This document shows, piece after piece, positions 10,778-61,529 of a stretch of 64,000 nt of DNA. Position numbers and translations under genes: made by a program. The DNA is from an uncultured Planctomycetaceae bacterium (GTDB lineage Bacteria > Planctomycetota > Planctomycetia > Pirellulales > Pirellulaceae), in contig CAIPEB010000587.1 of NCBI GenBank assembly GCA_903863885.1, positions 1 to 64,000 on the forward strand, read 5' to 3'. Positions within the stretch are counted from its first letter, which is position 1; each line of letters starts with the position of its first letter. Below the pieces are notes generated by a model that worked only from the letters and a program-made list of their open reading frames with translations, had not been told where the DNA came from and made no database searches.

Positions 10778-11455
10778 ATGACTTCACGAACCGTACACAA
10801 ACACGACTTCCCGATGCGGATTGGACTCAAGGGACGAGTAATCGATCTGCGTCCGCTGCAGGCAGGCGACGAGAAGGCCATGGTCAGTTTCGCGCAGTCG
10901 GTGCCCAAACATGATCTGCTGTTTCTGCAACGCGACATCACCGACCCGGCCGACGTGGATTGGTGCATTGCCGAATCAATTGCCGGACGGCTGATCACGA
11001 TCGTTGCCAAGGCCGGCGACAAGATCGTTGGTTATGCAACGTGCGACCGGGGAAGCGTGCGGTGGACCCGCCACGTCGCTGAGGTTCGTCTCATTGTCGC
11101 GGAATCCGCCCGCGGCATCGGCGTGGGGCGTCTCCTGCTGGAACTCGTCTTCGAGATGGCCCTCGACGAGGGGGTCACCAAAGTCATCGCTCGCATGACG
11201 CCGGACCAGACCGAAGCGGAACGCCTGTTCCGCAGGCTTGGCTTCGGTCCGGAGGCCGTCTTGCGAGACCACGCCATGAGCGAAAACGGCCAGACACACG
11301 ACCTGATCGTGCTCAGCTTCCACACGAAGCAGCACCCGAATGATCGATGTGTTTCCTGCGGCGCTCCGGTGCTATCCGCACTCTTCCTCGACGGTGCCCG
11401 CTTTTGCTCGCAGTGCTACGAGGATACCTTTCAGGAGTTGGGCGGTGGCGGTTGA
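10778..11455 (+). CDS. GNAT N-acetyltransferase with C-terminal zinc ribbon
   Basis: A 225-aa protein. Residues 18-180 form a GNAT fold with the acetyl-CoA loop ARGIGVGRLL (111-120) and AERLFRRLGF (147-156). After it comes a 35-residue tail with two CxxC knuckles (Cys191, Cys194, Cys210, Cys213), a zinc ribbon absent from ordinary GNAT enzymes. GNATs transfer an acetyl group from acetyl-CoA to an amine; the acceptor cannot be inferred. The ribbon may bind a protein or nucleic-acid partner. ATG 10778 has a good ribosome site (AGGAG, 5 nt). No signal peptide: cytoplasmic. The GH13 gene follows on the same strand after about 50 nt. Confidence 0.87.
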   Translation: MTSRTVHKHDFPMRIGLKGRVIDLRPLQAGDEKAMVSFAQSVPKHDLLFLQRDITDPADVDWCIAESIAGRLITIVAKAGDKIVGYATCDRGSVRWTRHVAEVRLIVAESARGIGVGRLLLELVFEMALDEGVTKVIARMTPDQTEAERLFRRLGFGPEAVLRDHAMSENGQTHDLIVLSFHTKQHPNDRCVSCGAPVLSALFLDGARFCSQCYEDTFQELGGGG

Positions 11456-11505
11456 TATTCGAGCGAATTACCGCCGCTCACGAACTCCAACCAGATGATC
11501 CGCAT

Positions 11506-14205
11506 ATGCGAGCCAACTGTGTCTGTTCGTTTGTATCAACTCGTGAACCTCAACTGAAAATAAGAAAGCGGCCGACACAGCTCGGCCAACTTTTAATGGC
11601 AATTGGTGCGGTCTGGTTGTTCGCCGCCGGACCGACCATTGCCGATGATGCGGCTCTTGTCCTGGAAAACAGCCGATTGCGACTCGCGTTCGACTCGGCA
11701 ACCGGAGCCTGGACGAGCTTCGTCGACAAGCAAACCGGCGACGATCTCATCGCCTCGCCGAAGGAACCGGTCACGGTTGCTCCAGCCAGCCTTCCCACGA
11801 TCAACACAGCGAGGCTGGATCGAGCGATCTCCGATGGCCGGGCCATCCGGCTCACCGGGGAATGGCTTTTCACTCCTCAGGCGGTTTCCGCGAGCGAGAC
11901 TGCGAGACTGCTGTCCGGCAACTTCGACGACGTCAAATGGACAACCACGCCGGTACCGAGCCAGCGGGGACAAGGCGACGACAAACTGCATGATCGACTC
12001 GGCGATTTCTGGTATCGCCGTGAGTTCGTCCCGCCGGCCGAGTGGAGCGGCAAGGACCTGGCGCTGATCATCGGAGCAATCGACGACCTCGACGTGGCCT
12101 ACATCAACGGCACGCAGATCGGCTCGACCGGGCAGCACAAACCGCACCACTGGGAGACGCCTCGCCTCTATCAAGTTCCAGCCCGCATTCTGCGGCCAGG
12201 CCAGCCGAATGTGCTGCTCTGCAGAATCACCAACGGCCTCGGCGACGGAGGCATCTCGGGCCCGGTCGTACTCGGAAATGCGAGCGACCTTGACGTTCTT
12301 GAATCGCATTCACCTGCGCTCACTCAGCACGACATTAAGAACGTTGGCGTGCACACAGAGCTTCAATTGAAGGCCCGCGCCGAATCCTTCGAGTACACCT
12401 CCTCGTTCACAGTGCCGGCGCTTGCCCCGGTTGTATTTCGCCAGATCACAATAAAGAACATCAGCGACAAACCGCAAATCTACCAGACGGCCACGTACGC
12501 AACTCCTCCGCTGAGCGTCGGGCCGACGCAGGTCCGCATCTTTCCGGGATCCCTGCCCGTGGGAGATGCGCCGACGGTTTCGCTCACCGCGAATCAAGCA
12601 GTGCGTTCGCGCAGCGAGGATCCGCTGGCCGTTCTCTGGGATGCGAGCAAGCAGCGAGGACTGGGAACATGGTTCGCTTGCGAGGATGAGTTCTCGCCGG
12701 TTTCCGTCGAACGCGTGCAACCCGATGGTGCGGTGATTTTGCGACATACGCAGAACATCGTTGCGAGTCTGGCCCCCGGCGAGTCAGTGACCCTGGGCCG
12801 CCAGATCCTCTGGCTGTCGCACGGTTCGCGCGATGCGGCGCTGGCGGTCGTTCAGGACGTGTATCGAGCCATCGACCTGCGGGCACCTTCGAAAGGCCTA
12901 TCCGGACTGCGGGGCATGATCGTTTATTGCGGCCATCCCGGCGGCCCCCCCGAACTCGATTTCCGGCGTTACGGCGGTTTCCGCGCCCTGTCGGCGTACA
13001 TCCCCACGCTGAAGAAGCTCCAGGTCGATCTGCTTTGGCTTCTACCCATCTGGGAGCACGGCGAAGATCCGAAATGGAATCTGTACTCGCCATTCGATCA
13101 CTTCCGCATCAATCGGATATACGGCTCGGACGATGAACTCAGGCAACTCGGCGCCGACTGCGGAAATCAGGGAATCCGGCTCATTTTCGATCTCGTACCG
13201 CACGGCCCGCCGGACTTTACGCCGCTCGCGAAAGACCATCCGGAATGGGTGGCAAAGGACCGAGAAGGCAAGCCGGTTTATGCGTGGAATCAACTGGCAT
13301 TCGACAACCATCACCCGGGCTGGCAGGATTACATGCGACGAGCCGCTGAATGGGGGGCCCGCCAGTTCGGAGCCGTTGGCGCGCGAGTGGACTGCGCCGC
13401 AGGCGGACCATTGAACTGGAACCCTGAAGTTACCAAGCGGCCGTCACTCTCCTCGCTCGCGGCAGGGCTGGGAATGTGCCGGGCGATCCGCGAAGGCTAT
13501 CTCCGCGCACATCAACAAGTGTGCCTGCTGCCTGAGGAATACACCGGCGCGAACATCTATTATCGTGTCGCGGACCTGACATACGACGCGCAGTTCTATT
13601 ACCTGCAGTCCGACCTTCTCGAGCGAAAGGCTCCGCCCGAAGAGTGGGCCCGCGACCTCCAGCAGTTTCTGCACGACCAGCAGCAGACTCTGCCGCCCGG
13701 GGCGCTGAAGATGCGCTGGATCAGCAACCACGACACCGTTTCCTGGACGTTCCAGAAACAGCGTCCGGCGAAGGCCTATGGGACAGAACGGATGCGGGCC
13801 CTCTTGGCTATGTGCGCGTTCATCGAAGGCGTGCCCATGCTGTACCAGGGGGATGAAGACCCGGCCGTGTACGGGCAGCCCGGCGCATCGAACATCGACT
13901 TCCTGGCCAAGGTGTATGGGTTGCGCAAGAAACTGCCGGCCGTCCGAGAAGGATCCGCCGACTACGCTGCCGCCACCGCAACGTCGGGCGTGTTTGCCTG
14001 CCTTCGCGAATCGAAGGAACAGCGAGCTTTGGTTCTCATCAGCTTCAATCCTCAGGCCGTTTCCAGCACGATCACGTCAAGCCGCGACTTGTCGGGCGAG
14101 TGGACCGACGAACTTTCCGGCGAGAGCCTATCGACGGCGAAGTCCAAGTCCGTTTCCATGCAACCGTATCAGGTCCGCGTGTTCGTGCAGCGATCGGGAT
14201 CGTGA
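11506..14205 (+). CDS. secreted GH13 alpha-amylase-family enzyme with jelly-roll N-domain
   Basis: About 899 aa. After a signal region (AIGAVWLFAAGPTIADD) comes a beta-sandwich/jelly-roll section (roughly residues 110-260, with DFWYRREFVPPAEW and VAYINGTQIGSTG as in glycosidase sugar-binding domains). Then follows a beta-rich linker and a GH13 (beta/alpha)8 barrel from about residue 465. All four GH13 regions are visible: DLVPHG (~562-567), GARVDC with nucleophile Asp629, LLPEEY with acid/base Glu677, and NHDT (~741-744). The enzyme should act on alpha-glucosidic bonds; exact specificity is unknown. The start is uncertain: ATG 11506 is used, ATG 11596 also gives a signal peptide, neither has a good ribosome site. 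The 3' end overlaps the convergent MFS gene by 37 bp. Confidence 0.88.
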   Translation: MRANCVCSFVSTREPQLKIRKRPTQLGQLLMAIGAVWLFAAGPTIADDAALVLENSRLRLAFDSATGAWTSFVDKQTGDDLIASPKEPVTVAPASLPTINTARLDRAISDGRAIRLTGEWLFTPQAVSASETARLLSGNFDDVKWTTTPVPSQRGQGDDKLHDRLGDFWYRREFVPPAEWSGKDLALIIGAIDDLDVAYINGTQIGSTGQHKPHHWETPRLYQVPARILRPGQPNVLLCRITNGLGDGGISGPVVLGNASDLDVLESHSPALTQHDIKNVGVHTELQLKARAESFEYTSSFTVPALAPVVFRQITIKNISDKPQIYQTATYATPPLSVGPTQVRIFPGSLPVGDAPTVSLTANQAVRSRSEDPLAVLWDASKQRGLGTWFACEDEFSPVSVERVQPDGAVILRHTQNIVASLAPGESVTLGRQILWLSHGSRDAALAVVQDVYRAIDLRAPSKGLSGLRGMIVYCGHPGGPPELDFRRYGGFRALSAYIPTLKKLQVDLLWLLPIWEHGEDPKWNLYSPFDHFRINRIYGSDDELRQLGADCGNQGIRLIFDLVPHGPPDFTPLAKDHPEWVAKDREGKPVYAWNQLAFDNHHPGWQDYMRRAAEWGARQFGAVGARVDCAAGGPLNWNPEVTKRPSLSSLAAGLGMCRAIREGYLRAHQQVCLLPEEYTGANIYYRVADLTYDAQFYYLQSDLLERKAPPEEWARDLQQFLHDQQQTLPPGALKMRWISNHDTVSWTFQKQRPAKAYGTERMRALLAMCAFIEGVPMLYQGDEDPAVYGQPGASNIDFLAKVYGLRKKLPAVREGSADYAAATATSGVFACLRESKEQRALVLISFNPQAVSSTITSSRDLSGEWTDELSGESLSTAKSKSVSMQPYQVRVFVQRSGS

Positions 14206-40897: not shown

Positions 40898-43624
40898 TTA
40901 GCGACTCGAGGGAATCCGGCTGGTGAAACGATAAGTGCCCGATGCGAGTTCACAGCGGAACAGGCCCTTCTCCAACGCTGCCTGCGAAACCCCGGGCTGC
41001 CCGCTCACGGGTTGTCCGCTTTCCTTGATCGCCCCAATCTCCGTGGCCGGTATCGTGGCCCCGGCTGTCGTGTTCGGCGGGACGGTCAGTTCCCACGTCA
41101 GTGTATCCCCATCAACACGCCATGCGCTGACGATTTTTCCGTAACCGGTCATCAGGGAGACGTCCACTCTTTTCAGCCCGCTCTCGATCCCCGGCGTTAC
41201 CGTGAAATGTTTGAATCCGGGCGACTGCTCGTCGTAGCGGATGCCGCCCAGTCCCTCGATAAACCACAGTCCGACCGAGATCATCGTATTGTGAATCTGA
41301 GAATTGTCGCCGTCCCATTCTTCCCAGATCGTCGTTGCGCCGTTGCGGAACATGTTTCCGAAACTGGGAAAGTCCTCCTTCGTGTGCATCAGCGCCATGA
41401 GGTCATTGCGCCGCTGGGCGATCAGATACTTGGACATGAAGTAATTGCCGTGCATGCCCGTATTCAGATGTCCCTTGCGAGTGACCGTGATATCGTGCTC
41501 CAGCGCTGCCATGACTTTGGAAGCGGCGTCGGAGGGCGTGATGCCGAAGAGCAGCGGCATCGCGAGGTAGGTCTGCTCGCCATTTGCATAAGTCGCGCCG
41601 TCGGGGTTCAGGAAACGCTCGTGCAGGCGCCCGGCAAGTTCCTTGGCGCGAGCCGCGTAGACTTCGGCCTGAGCATCGTCCCCCAACACATGGCCGATCT
41701 TGCCGGCAAGCTGCAGGCAGTAGACGAGGTAACAGTTGTTGAAGAAAAGGGTCGAGCGATCGTCGACGCGATCGCTGCCCTGCTTTCGTCCCGGCGGCAC
41801 CCAGTCGCCGAGGAAGTTCCACTCCGGTCCACCGGCGCATCCGATACCCACATACTTCTGCAGCAATCCGTCACCCATCTTCGTGTCGATGAACGCGAGC
41901 CACTTCTTCATGACGGGCCATCCCAGTTCGAGCGGCCGCCGGTCTCCGTACGTAATGTAGATCTGCCATGGCATGGTTATGCAGAAACCGCTCCATACCG
42001 GACCGCCACCGGCGTCCTGCGAATAGGGCGCAGTGTAGGGCACGTCCCCTTGATCGTTCTGCGAATCGCGCCAGTCGCCGGCCCACTTGGCGTAGAACGG
42101 GCCCGTGCGGAAGTTGAGCATCCCCATTTCCATCGAAGTGCCCGAGTCGCCGCCGTACCCCAACCGCTCGCGATGCGGGCAATCCACCGTGTATCCGCCG
42201 AGACTCAAACACTTGTAGGTCCAGCACATCGTCTCGTGGATCTTGTTAAGCAGCGGGTTGTCGCAGGAAAACGTCGCAGTGGGCTCGTAGTCCGTAGTGA
42301 CAAGCCAACCTCTGACCTCATCCGGTTTCGGAGCCCGCGGAAGTCCCTTGACGATCGCGAAACGGAACGCGGCGTAATTGAACCGGTTTCGGAACCGCTC
42401 GCCGCCGCCGCCCTTAGCCACGTAGACGTTGCGCTGGCCGTAGATCTGATACTGGCCGTTGGCAAGTTGCTTGTCGGCGAACTCCATCGTGACCGTTGTT
42501 CCCGGCTTCACGTCGTCGGGCAACTTCAATTCAAACCAGCCCGTGTAGTTACGCCCCATGTCGAGCAGCCATCCCTCGCCGAGCTGCTTCACTTCAGCAA
42601 GATGAATCTCGTCGAGCATGCGGTTCGGCTCCATCATCTGCGCAGCAATCACCGGCGTCGGCGGATGATGGACCGCTGCCTGCTTCCAGCCCGAATCGTC
42701 ATAGTCGGCCGCACTCCAGTTGGCGATCTCCTTGGCGGCCTCAACCTGCTCGCCCCCATAACTGCCGCTGGTCCCTTGCCCGAGCGGTGTAATATGGCTG
42801 GGATGAACTTTCCAGCTCGCATCGGTAGCGATCGTCAGCGGCTTGCCGTTCTTGAACGAAAGATTCAATTCGGCTTTCACCATGGGCCCTACGGTACCCG
42901 CGTTCTTCAGCACGCCGGTTGACCAACCGCGGCCCAGCCACAAGCCAATGCAGTTCCTGCCCGCGACGAGACGATCCGTGATGTCGTGAGTCAGATAGAG
43001 ACCGCGCTTTCCGTAATCCGATACTGCCGGAGTGAGCACGTCGCTTCCGACTTTCTCGCCGTTCACGTAGAGCTCGTAGTAACCCAGCGCACAAACGTAG
43101 ATCGTCGCTGCGTCAGGGACCTTCTCAAGCGTGATAGTCTTGCGCAACAACGGAAGCGGTCCCTCGTTGTTCTTCATCCAATCGGCGCCGATCCACTCGC
43201 CGTTCCAGTCGGCAGCGGCAAGCGGCCCCACGGAGAACATCGCAGCATCGCTCCATGGCGAAGCGGCTTCCGACTGATCCCACACGCGGACCTTCCACCA
43301 GCAACGCGAGTTCTTCGACAGCGGTTTTCCGGCGTAAGAAACCCATTGAGATTGGTCCGAGTCTACTTTGCCCGAATCCCAGCTCGCCTCGGCATCCGCT
43401 GCCGCGGGTGACGGAAGGACGACAATCTGAAAAGCCTTCTGGGACAACCCGCGATCGCCGGGCGGAATGGCCCAGGAAAAACGCGGTTGCGCCCGGTCGA
43501 TGCCCAGTGGATTTACGAGCCCCTCGCATCGCAATTGAACCGGTTTGCCCGGAGCGCCTTGCGAAACAGATGACAGGCAGGTCGCACCTGCACACAAAGC
43601 CAGCAGGACAGTCATGATGCGCAT
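40898..43624 (-). CDS. secreted GH78 alpha-L-rhamnosidase
   Basis: A 908-aa protein with signal peptide (MRIMTVLLALCAGATCLSS). Domains in order: an N-terminal fibronectin-like Bac_rhamnosid repeat (~28-135, LRCEGLVNPLGIDRAQPRFSW), the Bac_rhamnosid_N sugar-binding domain (~140-320, YELYVNGEKVGSDVLTP), a beta-sandwich (~325-440), the (alpha/alpha)6 barrel (~450-810), and a C-terminal beta domain. The catalytic-acid region DCPHRERLGYGGD (481-493) and the base region IWEEWDG (766-772) are intact. It should release terminal alpha-L-rhamnose from polysaccharides or glycosides in the periplasm or outside. ATG 43624 has AAGGA 8 nt upstream. Overlaps no other gene; the PHP gene follows at once. Confidence 0.93.
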   Translation of the reverse strand: MRIMTVLLALCAGATCLSSVSQGAPGKPVQLRCEGLVNPLGIDRAQPRFSWAIPPGDRGLSQKAFQIVVLPSPAAADAEASWDSGKVDSDQSQWVSYAGKPLSKNSRCWWKVRVWDQSEAASPWSDAAMFSVGPLAAADWNGEWIGADWMKNNEGPLPLLRKTITLEKVPDAATIYVCALGYYELYVNGEKVGSDVLTPAVSDYGKRGLYLTHDITDRLVAGRNCIGLWLGRGWSTGVLKNAGTVGPMVKAELNLSFKNGKPLTIATDASWKVHPSHITPLGQGTSGSYGGEQVEAAKEIANWSAADYDDSGWKQAAVHHPPTPVIAAQMMEPNRMLDEIHLAEVKQLGEGWLLDMGRNYTGWFELKLPDDVKPGTTVTMEFADKQLANGQYQIYGQRNVYVAKGGGGERFRNRFNYAAFRFAIVKGLPRAPKPDEVRGWLVTTDYEPTATFSCDNPLLNKIHETMCWTYKCLSLGGYTVDCPHRERLGYGGDSGTSMEMGMLNFRTGPFYAKWAGDWRDSQNDQGDVPYTAPYSQDAGGGPVWSGFCITMPWQIYITYGDRRPLELGWPVMKKWLAFIDTKMGDGLLQKYVGIGCAGGPEWNFLGDWVPPGRKQGSDRVDDRSTLFFNNCYLVYCLQLAGKIGHVLGDDAQAEVYAARAKELAGRLHERFLNPDGATYANGEQTYLAMPLLFGITPSDAASKVMAALEHDITVTRKGHLNTGMHGNYFMSKYLIAQRRNDLMALMHTKEDFPSFGNMFRNGATTIWEEWDGDNSQIHNTMISVGLWFIEGLGGIRYDEQSPGFKHFTVTPGIESGLKRVDVSLMTGYGKIVSAWRVDGDTLTWELTVPPNTTAGATIPATEIGAIKESGQPVSGQPGVSQAALEKGLFRCELASGTYRFTSRIPSSR

Positions 43625-50931: not shown

Positions 50932-53900
50932 CTACTGAGCCAGTTCCGCGATTGCTTCGCGGGACTGCTTCTTGGAGAACAGCCTGCAGATCAGCACATA
51001 GAACAGCGGCGCGAACAACGTAACCAGGAATGTCGACGTCACCACGCCGCCCAGGATGCCTATGCCGATTGCGTTCTGAGCGCCGGCACCCGCGCCCTTG
51101 GAAATCGCCAGCGGCAACACGCCAAATCCGAAAGCGAGCGAGGTCATGAGAATCGGTCGAAGCCGCAGTTTGGCGGCCTCGAGAGTGGCCGGTATCAACT
51201 CCATGCCTTCCTCGACGCGGCTCTTGGCGAACTGCACGATCAGGATGGCGTTCTTGGTGGTCAGGCCGAGCGTGGTCAGCATGCCGATTTGGAAATACAC
51301 GTCGTTCGGCAGTCCGGCCATGCTGCACGCGATCACGCCGCCGATTGCTCCCAGAGGAAGGCCGAGCAGAACCGAGATCGGGACCGGCCAGCTTTCGTAC
51401 AGCGCCGCAAGGCAGAGAAAGATAACGAGCACCGAGAATGCGTACAGGATTCCGGTCTGGGAGCTGGACATACGTTCCTGATATGAAAGACCGGTCCAGT
51501 CAAAACCGACTCCTTGCGGGAGTTGGCCGGCCAGTTCTTCCATCGCCACCATTGCCTCGCCGGAACTTCGCCCGGGCGCAGGTTCTCCTTGAATATTGAT
51601 GGACGGGAACGCGTTGAATCGTTCGAGCTTCGGAGACCCGACGGTCCAGCGGCCCGATGCAAACGACGTGAAAGGCACCATGTTCCCCGCACCATTGCGA
51701 ACGTAGTACCGATCGATATCGCTGGGCAGCATGCGGTACGGCGCATCCGCCTGGACGTAAACCCGCTTGATGCGGCCGCCCTGCACAAAGTCGTTCACGT
51801 ACGCGCTGCCGAAGGCGGAACTGACCGTGTTATGGATCAGTGTGATGGGCTGCCCTTCCGCCCCGGCCTTGGCCCAGTCCACGTCGAGCCGGTACTCGGG
51901 CACGTCGTCCATGCCGTTGGGCCGGACCTTCGTCAACCGAGGATCCTGCGAGGCCATGCCCATCAACAGGTTGCGGGCCTTCATCAATTCATCGTGGCCG
52001 ACACCCCCGCGATCCTGCAACTGAAAATCAAACCCCTTGGCCGTCCCCAGTTCGAAAACTGCGGGCGGGGCAAAGGCAAAGACCATTGCCTCGCGATATT
52101 TGGAAAACTCGCCCATGGCTTTCCCCGCCACCGCCGAGCAGCGGAGATCGGCCCGCGTGCGGAGATTCCAGTCCTTCAGTTTCACGAACCCCAGTCCCAT
52201 GTTCTGGCCCCGTCCCGCGAAACTCGTCCCGACCACCGTCATGCAGGATTCCACGGCGTCCTTCTGAGTGATCAGAAAGTGGTCCCGGACCTTGTCCATG
52301 ACCGCCTGCGTCATTTCCAGAGTCGCATTGGCGGGCAGGATCGCCTGGACCATGAGGATGCCCTGGTCCTCGTCCGGCAGGAAGGCCGTGGGCATGCGGC
52401 GGAACAGGAAGGCAAAAGCCCCGGTAATCAGGCAGAAAATGACCAGATACCGGAAGCTGCGAGTCAGCACGCGATTGACCTGGCCCACATACAGGTCGCG
52501 TCCCCAGAAGAACAGCCGATCGAACCAGCGGAAGAAAGGCCGCAGGAACCAGACGCCGGCCTCGGCCGGTTCGTGGCCCATCGCCACCGGCTTGAGCAGC
52601 GAGGCACACAGCACCGGGGTCAGGATCAACGCCACCAGCACCGACAACATCATGGAGGCAATGATCGTGACGGAGAACTGCCGGTAGATGATGCCGGTAG
52701 AACCGGTCATGAATGCCATCGGCCCGAACACCGCAGAGAGCACCAGCCCGATGCCGATCAGCGCGCTGGTAATCTGCTCCATGGACTTGCTGGTGGCCGC
52801 ACGCGGTGAAATGCCTTCTTCGCTCATGATGCGTTCGACGTTTTCCACCACGACAATTGCGTCGTCCACCAGCAGACCGATCGCCAGCACCATGGCAAAC
52901 ATGGTCAGCATGTTGATGCTGAACCCGAAGATCCCCAGCACGCCGAACGTGCCAAGCACGACGACCGGAACAGCAATCGTGGGAATCAGCGTGGCTCGCA
53001 TGTTCCCCATGAACAGATACATGACCAGGAACACGAGCACCACGGCCTCGAACAGCGTCCGGACCACTTCGGTGATCGCGACCCGCACGAACGGCGTCGT
53101 ATCGTAGGGATAGACGACCTCCATCGCTGCCGGAAAATATCGGCTCAATTCGTCCATCTTGGCCTTGATGGCGTCGGCCGTTTCCAGCGCGTTGGCACCG
53201 GGAGCCTGGCGAACCGCCAGGATCGCCGCCGGCTTCCCGTTGAAGTAATTGACGATGTCGTAGTACTCAGTGCCCAATTCCGCGCGTCCCACGTCACGGA
53301 TCCGCACGATGGAACCGTCCGGATTGGTGCGAACGGGAACAGAGCCGAATTCCTCCGGCGTCTTCAGCAGGTTCTGCACGATGATCGAGGCATTGAGCCG
53401 CTGTCCTTCGATCGACGGAATACCGCCGAACTGCCCCGCAGAGACTTCGACATTGTAGGTCCGCAGCGCGGACGTGACGTCGGCCATCGTCAGCCCGTAA
53501 TTGATGAGCTTTTCGGGGTTGACCCAGATCCGCATCGCGTATTGCGACCCAAAGGCCTCCACTTCTCCCACGCCGGGCACGCGGGCCAGCGCCTGCTGGA
53601 TGCTGGACACTCCGTAATCCCGCAGGTCGTAGCCGTCCATGCTCCCGTCTTTGGAGACGAGTCCCACCATCAGCAGGTAGTTGCGAGTCGACTTGCTGAC
53701 TTTCACTCCCTGGCGCTGGATCACCTCCGGCAGACTGGCCATCGCCAGTTGCAGTTTGTTCTGCACCTGGGACCAGACCAGATCCGGGTCGGTCCCCGGA
53801 GCAAACGTCAGTTCGATGCGGGAAGCGCCGGAGGAACTGCTGTTGGCCGACATGTACAGCATCTTGTCGAAGCCGGTCATCTTCTGCTCGATGATCTGCG

Positions 53901-54087
53901 TCACGCTGTCTTCGACCGTCTTGGCGGATGCCCCGGGATAAAAGGAGTCGATAGCAATCGACGGCGGCGCAATGGGAGGATACTGCGATACCGGCAGGTT
54001 GTAGATGGCCAGACCGCCCGCCAGCATCATGATGATGGCGATCACCCAGGCGAACACCGGCCGGTCCAGGAAGAATTTCGAAAGCAC
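50932..54087 (-). CDS. RND efflux pump, inner-membrane transporter (HAE1/AcrB type)
   Basis: A 1051-aa inner-membrane protein of the hydrophobe/amphiphile-efflux RND family. It opens MLSKFFLDRPVFAWVIAI and keeps the proton-relay Asp pair in GLLVDDAIVVVENVERIM (~405) and the porter-domain start PVSQYPPIAPPSI. Twelve transmembrane helices and two large periplasmic loops are expected. It exports drugs, detergents and other amphiphiles with the proton gradient through an outer-membrane channel; none is encoded nearby. The start is GTG 54087, matching the family N-terminus. A tandem repeat fills the gap to the adaptor gene upstream. Confidence 0.95.
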   Translation of the reverse strand: MLSKFFLDRPVFAWVIAIIMMLAGGLAIYNLPVSQYPPIAPPSIAIDSFYPGASAKTVEDSVTQIIEQKMTGFDKMLYMSANSSSSGASRIELTFAPGTDPDLVWSQVQNKLQLAMASLPEVIQRQGVKVSKSTRNYLLMVGLVSKDGSMDGYDLRDYGVSSIQQALARVPGVGEVEAFGSQYAMRIWVNPEKLINYGLTMADVTSALRTYNVEVSAGQFGGIPSIEGQRLNASIIVQNLLKTPEEFGSVPVRTNPDGSIVRIRDVGRAELGTEYYDIVNYFNGKPAAILAVRQAPGANALETADAIKAKMDELSRYFPAAMEVVYPYDTTPFVRVAITEVVRTLFEAVVLVFLVMYLFMGNMRATLIPTIAVPVVVLGTFGVLGIFGFSINMLTMFAMVLAIGLLVDDAIVVVENVERIMSEEGISPRAATSKSMEQITSALIGIGLVLSAVFGPMAFMTGSTGIIYRQFSVTIIASMMLSVLVALILTPVLCASLLKPVAMGHEPAEAGVWFLRPFFRWFDRLFFWGRDLYVGQVNRVLTRSFRYLVIFCLITGAFAFLFRRMPTAFLPDEDQGILMVQAILPANATLEMTQAVMDKVRDHFLITQKDAVESCMTVVGTSFAGRGQNMGLGFVKLKDWNLRTRADLRCSAVAGKAMGEFSKYREAMVFAFAPPAVFELGTAKGFDFQLQDRGGVGHDELMKARNLLMGMASQDPRLTKVRPNGMDDVPEYRLDVDWAKAGAEGQPITLIHNTVSSAFGSAYVNDFVQGGRIKRVYVQADAPYRMLPSDIDRYYVRNGAGNMVPFTSFASGRWTVGSPKLERFNAFPSINIQGEPAPGRSSGEAMVAMEELAGQLPQGVGFDWTGLSYQERMSSSQTGILYAFSVLVIFLCLAALYESWPVPISVLLGLPLGAIGGVIACSMAGLPNDVYFQIGMLTTLGLTTKNAILIVQFAKSRVEEGMELIPATLEAAKLRLRPILMTSLAFGFGVLPLAISKGAGAGAQNAIGIGILGGVVTSTFLVTLFAPLFYVLICRLFSKKQSREAIAELAQ

Positions 54088-54096
54088 CGTGACACC

Positions 54097-54145
54097 CCGT
54101 CAGTTCAGTAACACTCCGTCAGTTCAGTAACACCGCGTCAGTTCA
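54097..54145. repeat. 19-bp tandem repeats between adaptor and RND genes
   Basis: CCGTCAGTTCAGTAACACT (54097-54115) is repeated at 54116-54134 with one change, and a third partial unit (54135-54145) overlaps the adaptor stop codon. On the coding strand each unit contains a GAACTGA stop context and a GTG. It apparently arose by repeated copying of the end of the adaptor gene. Confidence 0.85.
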
Positions 54146-55451
54146 ATTTCGTCGCGGACTGGATCGCGCTCACACGATTGGCCGCAGCGGCCGACTTCTT
54201 GTCCGGCAGGACCACTTTGACTTCCGCGCCGGGCCGGACTTTCTGCAAGCCGTCCACAATCACGCGGTCACCCTGGGAGACGCCCGACGACACGAGCCAC
54301 TTGTCTCCAATCGCCCGGTCGGTAGCGAGTATCCTCTGCTCCACCTTTCCCGCAGCGTTCACGATCAGCGTCGTCGGATGCCCTTTGGGGTCTCGGGACA
54401 CGGCCTGCTGCGGCACGAGAATCGCCTCCTCATCGATCCCCTCGTCGATCGTGGCACGCACGAACATTCCGGGCAGCAGAATGCCGTCCGGATTGGGAAC
54501 GACAATCCGCAGAATCACCGACCCGGTGGTCGGATCTACCGTCACGTCGCGGAACTTGAGCGATCCTTCCTGCGGATACGGGGTGCCGTCCTCGAGCGTG
54601 ATCTTCACTCGATCGGTTCCGTTCTCTTTGAGACCTCCGCCCGCCAGGCTGCGTCTGAGGCGGTTGATTTCCGCAGTCGACTGCGGCACGTCCACGTAGA
54701 TCGGGTCGTATTGCTGAATCATCGCCAGAGGCGCGGCCTGATAGGCGGTGACAATGTCGCCCTCGGTGACGATGGATCGGCCGATGCGCCCCGAAATCGG
54801 AGCGTGGATCTTGGTGTAATCCAGATTGATTCGAGCCGTCATCACCGCTGCGTCCGCCTGCTTGATCGCTGCGTCGGCGGCCCCCACCGCCTGCCGGTCG
54901 CTCTCCACCTGGGCTTCGGCAGTGCGCAACGAGGCCTGGGCCACCTCGACATCGGTTGCCGCCTGGTCGCGCTGCATGCCCGAAGCAGCCTGAGTCTTGA
55001 GCAGGTTGCTGTACCGCTCGAAGTTCGTCCTGGCCAGTTCCAGAATCGCCTGATGCCGCTTGAGGCCCGCAATGCTCGCGTTCAACGAAGCCTCGGCTCG
55101 ATCCGCCGCTTTCTTCGCGGCGAGTTGGTTTGCTTCGGCGCTGTCCAGAGCCGCCTGATACGGCGCGGGGTCGATCTGATAGAGCAGATCCCCGCCCTTT
55201 ACCTGCGCACCTTCGGTGAACAGCCTTTTCTGGAGCAGCCCGTTCACCTGCGGACGTATCTCCGCACAAAGGAAACCCGACGTGCGACCCGGCAAATCGC
55301 AAGTCAGCACCACAGGCTCGCGTTTCATCGTCACCACGGTCACTTCGGGAACGGAAGGCGGAGGCGGCGACTCGTGCTGACGACAGGCTGACAAGCAACT
55401 CGTCGCCAACAGACACATCGCTGCGAACGATTTTCCCTTACGACTATTCAT
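54138..55451 (-). CDS. RND efflux periplasmic adaptor (membrane-fusion) lipoprotein
   Basis: A 437-aa AcrA/MexA-type adaptor. The signal peptide ends in a lipobox LSAC with Cys23. Then come the lipoyl half-motifs, a coiled-coil hairpin of heptads (AANQLAAKKAADRAEASLNASIAGLKRHQ is part of it, split here to short pieces: AEANQLAAKKAAD, AEAQVESDRQAVG), the second lipoyl half (INLDYTKIHAPISGRIGRS) and beta-barrel plus membrane-proximal domains. It bridges the RND pump and an outer-membrane channel. ATG 55451 has AGGAG 7 nt upstream. It lies between the TetR and RND genes, same strand. Confidence 0.94.
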   Translation of the reverse strand: MNSRKGKSFAAMCLLATSCLSACRQHESPPPPSVPEVTVVTMKREPVVLTCDLPGRTSGFLCAEIRPQVNGLLQKRLFTEGAQVKGGDLLYQIDPAPYQAALDSAEANQLAAKKAADRAEASLNASIAGLKRHQAILELARTNFERYSNLLKTQAASGMQRDQAATDVEVAQASLRTAEAQVESDRQAVGAADAAIKQADAAVMTARINLDYTKIHAPISGRIGRSIVTEGDIVTAYQAAPLAMIQQYDPIYVDVPQSTAEINRLRRSLAGGGLKENGTDRVKITLEDGTPYPQEGSLKFRDVTVDPTTGSVILRIVVPNPDGILLPGMFVRATIDEGIDEEAILVPQQAVSRDPKGHPTTLIVNAAGKVEQRILATDRAIGDKWLVSSGVSQGDRVIVDGLQKVRPGAEVKVVLPDKKSAAAANRVSAIQSATKLN

Positions 55452-55532
55452 GAAGAAGCTCCTGTTCGTCGAAGCCGGTGAAACCATGGATGAACCGCTG
55501 CGCCCCGGAAGTTGAAACCGGGACGCGACGCT

Positions 55533-56153
55533 TCAGATGACCCGCCCGGCGTCCGTGGCAATTCCATGCAGGAATGTCCCGAGAATTAAGAGGTAGACCG
55601 CCTCCCGCTGTTCGGGTCCGCTGAGATCAGGCTGACTGTGCAGCACGGCGCGACAGACTCCGAGATACATGTTCGCAAGCAGCTGCGGGTCAGCACTGCG
55701 GAAAACGCCTTCCGCGATGCCCTGCCGGAATACGCCCGCCAATCGCTGACTGGCCGCCTGGATCGTCCTGCGCTTCGATGAGTGCAGCAGTTTGAGCGCC
55801 GCATCGTCCTCGAACAGCAGTCGGTGCACCTGAGCGTGGCGAGCCACGTGCTCCAGCATCGAGCGAAGCTGCCCCGACAGCTTCTCCAAGGCGGGCAGGT
55901 CTTTCGCCTCCAACCCATCCAGTTCGACGAAGATCGGATCCACCAGCTTGGCGTGAATGAACTCCAGCAGCTCCTGCTTGCTGCGGAAGTAGCGGTACAG
56001 ACTCCCCTTCGCCATGCTCGCCGCCAGCGCCACCCGATCCATGGTCATCCCTTCGGCGCCATGCTCGCTCAACACGGCCACGGAGGCCTCGAAGAGCGCG
56101 TTCTTCATCATCTCGTCGAGCGCTTGCTTGCGGATTGCGGTGAGCCTCGGCAC
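55533..56153 (-). CDS. TetR/AcrR-family repressor of the efflux operon
   Basis: A 206-aa regulator. The N-terminal helix-turn-helix is clear (EGMTMDRVALAASMAKGSLYRYFRSK), with the recognition helix around KGSLYRYF; the C-terminal ligand domain is typical in length. The start is GTG 56153, with AAGGAG 7 nt upstream; the longer frame to 56204 lies on the promoter itself and is unlikely. It should bind the inverted repeat in its own promoter and repress itself and the adaptor/RND genes until an inducer, probably a pump substrate, releases it. Confidence 0.93.
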   Translation of the reverse strand: MPRLTAIRKQALDEMMKNALFEASVAVLSEHGAEGMTMDRVALAASMAKGSLYRYFRSKQELLEFIHAKLVDPIFVELDGLEAKDLPALEKLSGQLRSMLEHVARHAQVHRLLFEDDAALKLLHSSKRRTIQAASQRLAGVFRQGIAEGVFRSADPQLLANMYLGVCRAVLHSQPDLSGPEQREAVYLLILGTFLHGIATDAGRVI

Positions 56154-56182
56154 GCGAATTCTCCTTTGCGGGGTGACTTGGA

Positions 56183-56211
56183 ATAATACAGACTGACCAG
56201 TCACTTATCAA
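56183..56211 (-). promoter_or_regulatory. sigma70-type promoter of the TetR-RND operon
   Basis: On the minus strand: TTGATA, 17 nt, TATTAT, with optimal spacing and five of six matches in the -35 box. The -10 box (plus-strand 56183-56188) lies about 30 nt before the TetR start codon. The spacer contains the palindromic operator. Confidence 0.75.
56191..56202. promoter_or_regulatory. TetR operator 1 within promoter spacer
   Basis: GACTG-AC-CAGTC, a perfect inverted repeat with 2-nt centre between the -35 and -10 boxes, where a bound repressor would exclude RNA polymerase. Such palindromes are common at TetR genes of RND operons. Confidence 0.65.
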
Positions 56212-56581: not shown

Positions 56582-58891
56582 CTACCGCGCCGGCTGCGCC
56601 ATCGTCTTCAGCGTGCGCACCGTTTGAAGTGCACCGTCGATTGGCGGGAGCGCCGTTACGGCAATGCCCGATACGACCTTGGTGATGTTGTGGTCGACTC
56701 GGTCGGGCTCCGCCCAGACGGATCCCTCGGGAGTGGAGATGTAGACCGAAAAAGTGTGGTGCCCCGTCCCGGGCCGCTCGCCGATAACGTGCACGATCGC
56801 ACGTTTGCCGGGCAGATCCGCGAACAGCGTCTCGCCGATGCGGTAGCCCGCTCGCACGCGTCCCGAAGTCAACACGATATGGTCCGGCGACGGCCGGTAG
56901 CCCTCGTTCGTCAACAGCCGTCGCAGTTCGGCGAGGAATGGCAGAAGTTGCCCCGGATCCGTGATCGCCAGCGCATTCAATCCGTCGGAGATTACGATCT
57001 GCACGTCGTACTGCCCCGCCTGCCGATCGCGGAGTTGCCGGAGCAGCTGCCGAGTCGCTTCGGACAACCGCTCGCCTGTTGCGGGATGCAGGATATAGTC
57101 GGAGCGGTCTTTGGATTGGGTGGACATCGGCATCGCGCGCGGAATGGTCTTCACAAAACGCGGATCCAGTTCCGCCCAAAGGCTGTGTTTCGAGTCGCTG
57201 TAGACGCGCTGAATGGTTGCGGCAAGCTCCGGTTCGAGATCCCACGGCCGGCCGCCATTTCCCTGGGCGATGAAGACGCCGCGGCTGCGCACCTCTTTGA
57301 TCTGAGCCTTTCCGTCTTCAATGATCTCCGATTCGCTGCGGGCATCACCTTTCTTGCGGCGGTACTGCAGGTACACCCAAAGCGGATCTCCGAAATGCGA
57401 AGTCGGGCGTCCTTCCTGATCGATCACGCCGAGCTGCTGAAAGAACTGCCACATCCGGTCACTGACCCGGTAACCGTATTTCTCGCGCAACCGGACGTGG
57501 TCCTGGAAACCGGTCGTCATGATGGCCAGCATCGGATCGATTTTGGTCGGAAGCGCCATCAGGTATCCGGGATTGGCCGGCATCACCTGATCCAGGCACC
57601 AGTCGAGATCGCCCAGCGAGATATCCATGTGCAGCGTCGCGCAGACATCCAGGCCGATGGGCAGATCGTGCAGTTTGCCCATGACCAGATCCTCGAGGCA
57701 GGTCCGGACCAGTTGTTCGCGAGTCCGGAACACTTCAGGGCCGATGAATCCGGCAACGTCGTTCACGTGCACCCACGGCGCCGCGGCGCGGCCCGCCTTC
57801 TCCTGCGCCTCGGCCACCTTGCGGGTCAGCACGCGGGCAAAGCCGTACTTGCGAGACTCGTGAATGACCATGTCGAAACCGTGGCTGTGCCCATTCGTGA
57901 AATCGGCCCCCTGGCCGGTCTCGAAATAGAACCCGAACTGACCCGTGCGCCGGGCGGCATACGCCAGCATCTTGTCGACGCTGACATCAAAAGTCGCGTT
58001 TGCCGTATCGCTGCCGGCGATGCTCTGAAACCAGAGCGCGGTGCTGCCCGGTTCGTTCTTCTCGACTTCCGCCTGGACGTCGATGTGCGCCAGGACGCAG
58101 TGCGGCAAGAGCTCCGACACGCCGAACGTTGCGAGCAAGTCCTTGAGCGTCAGTTCAACCGCGGCCACCGACTGGGGATCGCTCGACACGGGATTCGTGC
58201 CAAGCACCACGTCGCCGACGGCGTAGGACCAGCCGTCAAACACCTGCCAACGTATGTCATCCACATTGTCCGTGGGCGAGTTCGGCTGAATGCGGCCGCT
58301 GAGATAGCCCTTGGCCCCGATCTTGCTTCCCGGCAGCGGATGAAAGACCTTCGCGCTGACGGCGACGAGTTCGTCGTTGCTCATCAATTTGACGATGCAG
58401 CCGATCACCTCGCTCGACAAACCGGGCGTCAGCGAGTGAATGGCCGCTTCGTCCTGCGACAGCAGCAACTGTTTCAACTCGCCGAGAGTCATGGCCGCCG
58501 TCTGTTCGGCCGCACGTTTGTCACGGTTTTCCGCAAGCAGTTCAGAGAGGCGATCTTCCAGAAGCGGGTGCGCATCGAGATCCTTGACGCGGGTATTGGC
58601 GAGCAGCTTGCGGGCGCGTTCGCGCGAAGCGTCGTCGGCCGCGGCCACGCCGATCGCCTGATCACCCTCCTTGAACGCGTTCGCGGCGCCCAGCACCTGC
58701 CGATACAACGCCGCATCGAAGCGGCCGGCGACGCGACTGACATAACCAAAAACATCCTCGCCCGCGACGGGCTCCTGGATCGCAACGCCGGCCGGCGCCG
58801 CGCCGGCTTCGGCGGCCCCGCAATGAACGCGAACAGCCAACGCAGCCGCACTTCCCGCCACCATCCCTAGAAAACCGCGTCGTCTCATCAT
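56582..58891 (-). CDS. eutBC: Tat-targeted ethanolamine ammonia-lyase, EutB-EutC fusion
   Basis: A 769-aa protein joining both subunits of the B12-dependent enzyme that splits ethanolamine into acetaldehyde and ammonia. EutB part, ~45-560: GRIQPNSPTDNVDDI (Arg200, Asn204), YAVGDVVLGTNP (224-234) and FETGQG (Glu324), all active-site regions. EutC part, ~598-765: VQIVISDGLNALA and HVIGERPGTG, which bind cobalamin. The N-terminus is a twin-arginine signal (MMRRRGFLGMVAGSAAALAV) not found in normal EutB. Subunits are separate genes in enterobacteria. No reactivase (eutA), transporter, microcompartment or B12 riboswitch is seen. Start ATG 58891 (or 58888) directly precedes the Tat motif. Export with adenosylcobalamin bound would be needed for periplasmic activity. 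Confidence 0.9.
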   Translation of the reverse strand: MMRRRGFLGMVAGSAAALAVRVHCGAAEAGAAPAGVAIQEPVAGEDVFGYVSRVAGRFDAALYRQVLGAANAFKEGDQAIGVAAADDASRERARKLLANTRVKDLDAHPLLEDRLSELLAENRDKRAAEQTAAMTLGELKQLLLSQDEAAIHSLTPGLSSEVIGCIVKLMSNDELVAVSAKVFHPLPGSKIGAKGYLSGRIQPNSPTDNVDDIRWQVFDGWSYAVGDVVLGTNPVSSDPQSVAAVELTLKDLLATFGVSELLPHCVLAHIDVQAEVEKNEPGSTALWFQSIAGSDTANATFDVSVDKMLAYAARRTGQFGFYFETGQGADFTNGHSHGFDMVIHESRKYGFARVLTRKVAEAQEKAGRAAAPWVHVNDVAGFIGPEVFRTREQLVRTCLEDLVMGKLHDLPIGLDVCATLHMDISLGDLDWCLDQVMPANPGYLMALPTKIDPMLAIMTTGFQDHVRLREKYGYRVSDRMWQFFQQLGVIDQEGRPTSHFGDPLWVYLQYRRKKGDARSESEIIEDGKAQIKEVRSRGVFIAQGNGGRPWDLEPELAATIQRVYSDSKHSLWAELDPRFVKTIPRAMPMSTQSKDRSDYILHPATGERLSEATRQLLRQLRDRQAGQYDVQIVISDGLNALAITDPGQLLPFLAELRRLLTNEGYRPSPDHIVLTSGRVRAGYRIGETLFADLPGKRAIVHVIGERPGTGHHTFSVYISTPEGSVWAEPDRVDHNITKVVSGIAVTALPPIDGALQTVRTLKTMAQPAR

Positions 58892-59045: not shown

Positions 59046-61529
59046 ATGCGTCCGCCGATCTCCATCCTCAACACGCTGGTCTTGATTCTGTCATTTACAT
59101 ACGCAGCACCGGGGGCGACACCGCGGCTCCGAGTCGCCTCGGTCTCCGCTCAACTGAATCTCAATACCGTCCACTGGAGGATCGTGGCCGTAGCCGATGG
59201 CGATACAACGAAGATAGATCGCCTTACGCCGGAGGTCCGACTGGAAGGGGCCGCGCTGGTCCACACGTCGGCACGCCCTCCGCTGTTTTTTATCGAGGCA
59301 GCGGCGGAGGGACCTCGATCGGCTCCCAAGCTGAGCCTCCGGTTGGCTGAATACCCGAATTGCTCGGTCGATGCTGCCCTGCCCTTGTCCTTGAATCTGG
59401 CCGACTTGCCGTGGCAGGCACGATGGCTCGGAAAAGACTCAAAGCTGGACAGTATTCACGTCAGCCCCGAATCGTCTGGAACATGGAATACGATTCGCCT
59501 GCCCAAAGAGTGGCAGGAGACCGGCATCACCTGGGTGCGCACGCGAGTGACCGTTCCGGAGGCATGGAAGGACCTCGGACTTCACCTGAACCTCGGACCC
59601 GTCGACGACCGCGACATCACGTTCTTTAACGGCAAAGAGATCGGCCGCACGGACGGCTGGAACAAGCCTCGCAGTTACGCGATTCCAAACGAGGCGGTTG
59701 CGTGGGGGAGTGAGAACGAGATCGCGGTGGCGGTGGACAACGGATTTGCCGGCGGCGGAATGTACAGCGGGCCGCTGGAAATCACGGCCGGCGATTCGCA
59801 TTCGATCCGACTATCGTTTGCCGACCGGACCACTCAGGCCGAGGCACAGCGAGCCAGGCCGGAACCGACCGCCAAGCGACTGCCGTTGCGCCCCATGGCC
59901 GTACAGAACGGCGTATTGCGATATGCCGACGGCGGCGAAGCGGCGCTGTGGGGCGTGAATTACTATCCGCAAAGCTGGGAACAATTTCAGTCGCTGAAGA
60001 AGCTCAACGTCGACCCTCGCCGATCGATCGACGAGGACTTCGAGGACTTCGCAGCGATGGGCCTGGACATGATCCGTATTCATGTCTTCGACACCGAGAT
60101 CACCGACGGCGCCGGAAACCTCGTAAATAACGAGCACCTGGACCTGCTCGACTACCTCGTCGCTCAGTGCAATCGACGGGGAATCTACCTGATGCTCACT
60201 CCGATTGCCTGGTGGAACAGTCCCGGCGCAAGGCCCGACTCGTTTTCACGCAACACTCCCAAACAGGCGATGAGCATGTGGCCGGCGATGTGGCCGGTCC
60301 AATCCAATTACCTCCGCCAGTTTCTCGGCCACACCAATCCGCACACGGGGAGGCGATTGGCGGACGAGCCCTGCCTGGCTCTGCTGGAGATCATCAACGA
60401 ACCGGACTACTGGAATTACGGCAATGTGATTTCCGGCGATCCGGGCGAGACGTTTCTGAACCGCGATGTCTCGCAGCGGGCACTTGCAGGCGTGGCCGAG
60501 CAGTGGCGGCAGTTCCTTCCGGCACCCGAATGGGATTCGGCCGCCACGTTTGCCTGTTTCCGTTATCAGCTTCTGCGGCGATACATTGACACGATGATCG
60601 AGACAATCCGCCAGACCGGCGCCAGGCAGCCGATCGCCTACTTCGCCAACCGCTGGGGCGAAGTCGACGACGTGTTCCAGGGGATAGCCGACAGCCGCTG
60701 CGATGCGATTACTCTCGGAGCCTACCCGGGCGGATTGCCTCAAGACCCGCGAAACGACACGGTGAATCTGCTCGGCGAGGCGGGCAATGTCGCCCTGGAG
60801 GCCCGCTTCGCCTCCAAAGCGAGATTGGTCTACGAGTTCGATGCGGCCGGAACCCGCGATTCGGTCTGCATGTTCCCCGCGATGGCTCGCCACTGGCGCA
60901 ACGCCGGAGTGCAGGCCGCCTGTCAATTCCAGTACGATGCGAGGTCGCTCGCACACCTGAACTGGGATTGGCCGCAGCACTACCTGAACCTCTGGCACGT
61001 GCCCGGAAAGACGGCCAGTTTCCTGATCGGCGGCGAGGTCTTTCGAAATCTGCCGCGCGGAGCCGATCTTCCCACGCCTGCGGACGACCAGGTCTTTCCG
61101 CCAGCCGCGGTGAGCTTCCAGCGCAACGCAGCCCTGTTCGCCTCGGATGACTGCTTCATGCAGGCCCGGCGAACCGACTGGCAGCCGCTGATTCTGCCCG
61201 AGCATCCGCGGAGAATCCTCTCGGTGGGCAGTTGCCGTTATTTCGATTGGGACGGCACCGGGATCGTGGATATGCGGATCGATGCGAAAACGGCCACTCT
61301 GCACATCTACCCGGACGTGGACCGCATCCGCGAAGGCCTTCGCGGAACCGTTGAGCAACCGCTGACGAAGCTCGCAGCCCGGGAACACACCTTTCGCCTT
61401 CGCTTGCCCGAATGGGCCGACGCCAAGGTCAGAAGAAAGGATGGCGACACGTGGGTCGACATGCCCGATCGCGCCGGACAATTCTCTGCGAGCGCGGGGA
61501 TTTACCAACTCAATCGCGGGAGTCAATAA
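59046..61529 (+). CDS. secreted GH5-like glycoside hydrolase with jelly-roll domain
   Basis: An 827-aa protein with signal peptide (LNTLVLILSFTYAAPGA). Residues ~30-255 form beta domains, including a jelly roll as in beta-galactosidases (WVRTRVTVPEAWKDLGLHLNLG, DITFFNGKEIGRTDGW). From ~295 to ~650 comes a (beta/alpha)8 barrel of clan GH-A: LWGVNYYPQSWEQF, the acid/base Glu452 in IINEPDYWN and the nucleophile Glu597 in LVYEFDAAG. The tail is beta-rich. Clan GH-A fits GH5 mannanase/cellulase-type enzymes; substrate not predictable. ATG 59046 is preceded by AAGG at long spacing. Its 3' end overlaps the convergent propeller gene by 20 bp; it diverges from EutBC. Confidence 0.85.
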   Translation: MRPPISILNTLVLILSFTYAAPGATPRLRVASVSAQLNLNTVHWRIVAVADGDTTKIDRLTPEVRLEGAALVHTSARPPLFFIEAAAEGPRSAPKLSLRLAEYPNCSVDAALPLSLNLADLPWQARWLGKDSKLDSIHVSPESSGTWNTIRLPKEWQETGITWVRTRVTVPEAWKDLGLHLNLGPVDDRDITFFNGKEIGRTDGWNKPRSYAIPNEAVAWGSENEIAVAVDNGFAGGGMYSGPLEITAGDSHSIRLSFADRTTQAEAQRARPEPTAKRLPLRPMAVQNGVLRYADGGEAALWGVNYYPQSWEQFQSLKKLNVDPRRSIDEDFEDFAAMGLDMIRIHVFDTEITDGAGNLVNNEHLDLLDYLVAQCNRRGIYLMLTPIAWWNSPGARPDSFSRNTPKQAMSMWPAMWPVQSNYLRQFLGHTNPHTGRRLADEPCLALLEIINEPDYWNYGNVISGDPGETFLNRDVSQRALAGVAEQWRQFLPAPEWDSAATFACFRYQLLRRYIDTMIETIRQTGARQPIAYFANRWGEVDDVFQGIADSRCDAITLGAYPGGLPQDPRNDTVNLLGEAGNVALEARFASKARLVYEFDAAGTRDSVCMFPAMARHWRNAGVQAACQFQYDARSLAHLNWDWPQHYLNLWHVPGKTASFLIGGEVFRNLPRGADLPTPADDQVFPPAAVSFQRNAALFASDDCFMQARRTDWQPLILPEHPRRILSVGSCRYFDWDGTGIVDMRIDAKTATLHIYPDVDRIREGLRGTVEQPLTKLAAREHTFRLRLPEWADAKVRRKDGDTWVDMPDRAGQFSASAGIYQLNRGSQ

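Follow-up and report, generated by a model that had tools for sequence, protein, structure and literature searches.

The window, which is the whole 64,000-nt stretch of DNA that was analysed, contains a minus-strand gene whose 769-aa product carries a Tat-type signal peptide and joins a complete EutB to a complete EutC on one chain. This product is probably a periplasmic, EutA-independent, AdoCbl-dependent, single-chain ethanolamine ammonia-lyase (EAL) that is exported by the Tat system, with its location, cofactor state, substrate and turnover being what we infer from the sequence. The reading frame (56582..58891, minus strand) starts with an ATG that is directly adjoined by a second ATG, as seen in the list of open reading frames and the translation. 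The plus-strand reading frame over 56582–58891 was rejected as an antisense shadow of eutBC and not a gene of its own. The features of the gene are as follows.

56582..58891, minus strand: fused eutBC gene, 769 aa; an open reading frame matched only by the EutB and EutC families, with an AlphaFold2 model (pLDDT 89.8) that resembles E. coli EAL chains
58808..58891, minus strand: predicted Tat signal peptide, residues 1–28, its end after AEA being a guess; read from the sequence, disordered in the model (1–31), with equivalents across the clade
58868..58885, minus strand: twin-arginine motif RRRGFL, residues 3–8; read from the sequence, with an RR-type motif in 55/64 clade members
57398..58705, minus strand: EutB domain, residues 63–498; PF06751, 3.3e-133; 3abo_A, TM 0.88 by target length
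57272..57397, minus strand: EutB–EutC linker, residues 499–540; lies between the Pfam matches, modelled confidently and as mostly helical
56597..57271, minus strand: EutC domain, residues 541–765; PF05985, 1.9e-28; TM 0.69–0.74 by target length to the EutC subunits of E. coli EAL
58292..58294, minus strand: Arg200 codon (E. coli Arg160), invariant in 64/64
58193..58195, minus strand: Asn233 codon (E. coli Asn193), invariant in 64/64
57920..57922, minus strand: Glu324 codon (E. coli Glu287), invariant in 64/64
57647..57649, minus strand: Asp415 codon (E. coli Asp362), invariant in 64/64; Ala in the cytoplasmic clade cytfus

The fused protein, its predicted fold and its active site

Both Pfam matches of the window protein exceed the cut-off, which bears out the claim of an earlier note on this DNA that EutB and EutC lie on one polypeptide. 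With the NCBIfam models the EutB part was accepted (582.8 bits versus a cut-off of 554), while the EutC part, at 77.8 bits, was far below the equivalog cut-off of 230; hence, as judged from sequence scores, EutC is genuinely present, though divergent. The AlphaFold2 model, which was built from 48 clade members, had a mean pLDDT of 89.8 and a pTM of 0.88, and the segments with pLDDT below 50 were the signal (residues 1–31) and a loop (residues 327–335). The significant fold matches of the model were to EAL and to diol/glycerol dehydratases. In the PDB it was best matched by 3abo_A and by the EutC subunits of E. coli EAL. A reductive dehalogenase identity was ruled out, because only the EutB and EutC families match and the fold matches those of EAL and diol/glycerol dehydratases. 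Among solved structures, the relatives of the window protein are EAL chains from E. coli and Listeria. The EutBC enzymes of E. coli (PDB 3abo) and Listeria (2qez) have both domains, the fold and the substrate-site residues in common with the window protein, but they are encoded by two genes, have no signal, are accompanied by EutA and often by microcompartment genes, and are only about 30% identical to it.

The alignment of 64 exported proteins showed that the positions equivalent to E. coli Arg160, Gln162, Asn193, Glu287 and Asp362, which we take from the E. coli structure to be the substrate-binding residues, are invariant in 64/64 proteins, and so are those of Phe258 and Phe329. The equivalents of the five residues in the window protein (P0001) are Arg200, Gln202, Asn233, Glu324 and Asp415, and thus both residues that had been named earlier, Arg200 and Glu324, are present. 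The earlier description of the motifs as intact holds for these five residues, but it does not extend to the Tyr404 column, where the window copy alone among the 64 has Ile, nor to residues 397–398, where it has Thr-Cys in place of the Cys-Cys found in 63/64. The mature exported proteins contain on average 8 Cys, and depletion of Cys as a signature of the periplasm was not seen, as the Cys count was no lower than in the cytoplasmic relatives.

A fused, probably exported clade and its signals

The fused EutBC of the window, with its export signal, is not a one-off. A scan of genome contigs gave 62 loci, further ones were obtained from 60 relatives and from 244 genomes within the phylum, and the clade members were 51–72% identical to the window protein across nearly the full length. 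They span Planctomycetota, Verrucomicrobiota, Bacteroidota, Myxococcota, Thermodesulfobacteriota and Rhizobiaceae, with others in MAGs labelled Aminicenantes and Riflebacteria; this taxonomy follows the record labels, many of them those of MAGs, which makes individual placements unsure. The clade is also represented on numerous megaplasmids of S. meliloti and S. fredii, among them Sinorhizobium meliloti pSymA. The database records that annotate clade genes label them plain “EutB”, and the recognition of the exported fused clade corrects this annotation. On pSymA, eutBC follows genes for a GH94-domain glycosyl transferase and a glucoamylase-family protein in the same orientation, with a phosphoketolase gene further up (L083:2606-10313).

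In two trees built on the EutB part, a branch with support of 100 and 99, respectively, sets the exported proteins apart from split EutB and from the signal-less fused clade cytfus (Methylocystis MJC1, L014, L016, L017, L019). A second signal-less fused clade, cytfus2 (L139-L144), which comes from the class of Geobacter and is 38–40% identical to the Geobacter-type protein, is the sister of the exported clade if the root is placed on the others. Both cytfus and cytfus2 resemble the window protein in having EutB and EutC in one chain, but they have no signal and form separate clades. At the active site, Phe258 is replaced by Leu in cytfus2 (L139-L144), and Asp362 is replaced by Ala in 5/5 cytfus members (L014, L016, L017, L019, L087), which may point to another substrate. 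Fusion may have arisen a single time or repeatedly, as the groups meet on long branches. The existence of the two signal-less fused clades, together with the fusions reported in P. carbinolicus in 2012 (PMC3543383), also means that the earlier statement that known enzymes are two-gene is not quite accurate.

Signals were called from the motif together with hydropathy. The N-terminus of the window protein, MMRRRGFLGMVAGSAAALAVRVHCGAAEA, contains a twin-arginine motif, then a hydrophobic stretch and then an AEA cleavage-like site, and TatC is encoded in the same genome, so that all the Tat-substrate features looked at are present. The twin-arginine signal claimed earlier was thus recovered, with equivalents across the clade. 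An RR-type motif ahead of a hydrophobic stretch was found in 55 of the 64 aligned exported proteins, among them L040, which reads MLHRRRFLALGLAGG. RK, RQ or RN variants of the motif occur in 5/64, all from Bacteroidota, and Sec-type signals in 4/64 (L052, L063, L065, L082), for example MKRFIAITAMIALGVFAFSTYSSA; many more Sec-type members were found in the class of Geobacter. In L034 and L047 the RR signal runs into a lipobox-like LxGC, and L048 is similar. Among 12 further planctomycete members 10 have an RR signal, while the other two, L107 and L108, have no signal upstream of the match. The survey of genomes for the fusion plus a signal, which the earlier note had suggested, thus gave a clade in about six phyla with an export signal on nearly all complete members; the signal is absent from the fused sister clade and from split EutB.

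When Sec and Tat were mapped onto the tree, two changes were needed, and well-supported branches force two. The letters of the signal N-terminus are poorly conserved, while the signal features are kept throughout the clade. Because the signal loses its letters and switches the export machine, yet is kept, selection for export is the best explanation, and export looks to be under selection in this clade. The earlier note had also held that AdoCbl would have to be bound before Tat export. As a general rule this finds no support in view of the Sec-type signals of the Geobacter- and Pelobacter-type orthologues, which imply unfolded export and loading outside; hence loading of the cofactor before Tat export is apparently no general requirement.

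EutA, cobamide supply and gene surroundings

The source assembly (G000; 11 Mb in 789 contigs, 96% complete) contains a single copy of EutBC, with no second EutB or EutC, and a search for EutA in the whole 11 Mb gave none. No eut gene was found in the flanks examined; the earlier observation that no further eut gene is visible is thus borne out for the flanks and, as regards EutB, EutC and EutA, for the whole assembly. The neighbouring eutA or other eut genes that would mark a microcompartment or eut-operon enzyme are thus missing from around the window gene. A PduO-type adenosyltransferase is encoded in G000. Within Planctomycetota, EutA was found in 0/21 genomes with only the exported form versus 5/17 with other EutB/EutC forms (Fisher p 0.012); the association is modest, and related genomes are not independent. 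G015, which has both forms, was counted with the other forms. EutA adjoins the cytoplasmic fusion in G015 and G004; in some genomes, then, the cytfus proteins differ from the window protein in this respect as well as in Ala at Asp362. EutA matches in six exported-form genomes were rejected, as they covered 44–151 of 475 positions at 27–37 bits in frames of about 420–460 aa; they would fit ATPases that share the EutA fold, for example FtsA or PilM.

The loci of Pelobacter and Geobacter type are more informative about cofactor supply. For P. carbinolicus two eutBC fusions have been described that share 70% identity and enclose cobalamin genes; a corrinoid-type ABC transporter lies close by, eutA is lacking, and strains of this bacterium reportedly grow on ethanolamine, which they split (PMC3543383). 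Export is unmentioned in the ethanolamine section of that paper. These genes, eutBC1 and eutBC2 (Pcar_0491, Pcar_0467; PMC3543383), resemble the window gene in being fused and in having no eutA. In genome G351 one contig contains two exported-clade copies about 28 kb apart, and the agreement in the layout of the copies suggests that G351 is P. carbinolicus. Both copies are placed inside the exported clade in the EutB-part tree, are roughly as similar to the window gene as the remaining distant members are, and carry export signals, which are of the Sec type (MLQKGKFVAGITGALVMTFLASMAGA and MRLRSKFLYGITFGLALTFVASLAGA) and not of the Tat type as in the window gene. They also differ from it in sitting among cobalamin genes: around them are cobS, the corrinoid adenosyltransferase gene cobA, cobB and cbiD, as well as genes for a porin of the TorF type and a binding protein that resembles PotD. 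The Geobacter-type loci share the porin and the binding protein, and add a BtuC/BtuD/BtuF-like transport set. Given these cobalamin and transport neighbours, the exported clade is, as far as gene order is informative, linked to cobamide supply. At L082:3766-11992 and in L152/L153 the exported lyase is accompanied by the TorF-type porin, the PotD-like protein and a conserved membrane-type protein, for which (L082:8328-9110) no Pfam or NCBIfam family match was obtained. Neighbourhood clustering and a Pfam scan of 71 flanking ORFs of relatives gave no shared partner family more than three times, and none outside the Geobacter/Pelobacter-type loci. Rfam scans of 21 loci gave no cobalamin riboswitches.

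Proposed function and its alternatives

The fusion, the predicted fold, the substrate-site residues, the export signals, the switches of route and the absence of EutA can all be read from the sequences, and a mechanism may be proposed on this basis. The Tat system would carry the single-chain lyase across the inner membrane to a work site outside the cytoplasm, where it would cleave ethanolamine to acetaldehyde and ammonia through the radical mechanism typical of EAL. For AdoCbl binding and ethanolamine deamination, the P. carbinolicus-type locus lends indirect support. The cobalamin site sits between EutB and EutC, so fusion makes sense for export, as one signal peptide would take both halves of the pocket out together. 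In the Tat members the chain could be exported folded, perhaps with its cofactor, while in the Sec members folding and cobamide uptake would necessarily take place outside. Ethanolamine ammonia-lyase is thought to depend on ATP-driven reactivation, and the periplasm has no ATP. The weak point of the exported-lyase reading is therefore cofactor damage, since EAL is inactivated during use and rescue by EutA requires ATP (PMC5821096). With neither EutA nor ATP outside, the inactivated enzyme would probably be given fresh cobamide or be replaced, and slow turnover is also possible. Counted against this reading are also the Cys content that is not reduced, the divergent EutC, the Ile at Tyr404, the absence of conserved partner genes beyond the Geobacter/Pelobacter-type loci and the lack of a B12 riboswitch. 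Respiratory reductive dehalogenases (RdhA/PceA) provide a precedent, as they are corrinoid enzymes exported by Tat (PMC10624902), as is proposed for the window protein, but they are not homologous to EutBC, have an unrelated fold and use Co(I) chemistry with FeS clusters and no adenosyl radical.

EAL also accepts 2-amino-1-propanol, and an exported, AdoCbl-dependent enzyme could have as its natural substrate another small amino alcohol or an ethanolamine-like compound outside the cell. The long branch that parts the clade from known EALs, its differences at conserved EutC positions and beside the active site, and the solved complex of EAL with 2-amino-1-propanol (5ysr) would agree with this. 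However, all five substrate contacts, including Asp362, are kept in 64/64, and P. carbinolicus strains reportedly split ethanolamine (PMC3543383), which makes another substrate rather unlikely. The lack of both ATP and EutA outside the cytoplasm, and the BtuC/BtuD/BtuF-like genes that adjoin the Geobacter-type copies, could instead be explained by an exported protein that is not used as an enzyme at all and serves as a periplasmic binder, store or sensor of cobamides or ethanolamine. We consider this improbable, because a clade of great depth has kept the catalytic Glu and every substrate contact unchanged, which cobamide binding alone would not demand, and because the fused P. carbinolicus genes are the EAL genes reported for a species that includes strains growing on ethanolamine (PMC3543383).

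The N-terminal stretch could also be a non-working signal, with the enzyme cytoplasmic or anchored to the inner face of the membrane. To our knowledge, all EALs characterised to date are cytoplasmic; codon 10 is an in-frame ATG, and a start there would drop the twin arginines, the Cys content is not reduced, and L107 and L108 lack a signal upstream of the match. Against these points stand signal features that are kept clade-wide despite poor conservation of letters, at least two switches between Tat and Sec, the lipobox-like LxGC that ends the signal in some members, and the absence of an N-terminal signal from the sister group of fused proteins and from the split enzymes, and a non-working signal is thus very improbable.

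On the exported-lyase reading, a chemistry known to date only from the cell interior probably takes place outside the cytoplasm as well. We know of no AdoCbl-dependent radical enzyme with demonstrated activity outside the cytoplasm. The wider proposal, that a class of such enzymes works there in roughly six phyla and does so with no reactivation driven by ATP, being loaded before export in the Tat lineages and taking up cobamide outside in the Sec lineages, appears to us evenly poised between right and wrong. The fusion itself has already been described (PMC3543383), while no report of an exported EAL, or of export of an AdoCbl enzyme, was found in searchable papers, including work on Planctomycetes, Sinorhizobium, secretomes and metaproteomes. 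As the clade has members on pSymA of S. meliloti and in the presumed P. carbinolicus genome, the assumption of ATP-driven reactivation becomes testable in organisms that can be grown. If the reading is true, extracellular cobamides would gain an added role, and the turnover of membrane-lipid ethanolamine an extracellular step, with phosphatidylethanolamine as a plausible, putative source of ethanolamine for the exported lyase.

As for the other genes of the window, translations suggest downstream of eutBC, on the same strand, a TetR-type regulator (55533-56204) followed by an RND efflux set (54138-55487 and 50932-54087), the whole (50932-56204) comprising the regulator, a membrane-fusion protein and a pump. 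The opposite strand encodes a large protein (59046-61529) with a weak, sub-cut-off match to a GH5 cellulase. Together with an alpha-L-rhamnosidase (40898-43624) and an alpha-amylase-type protein (11347-14205), this GH5-like protein makes up the carbohydrate-active genes seen in the window.
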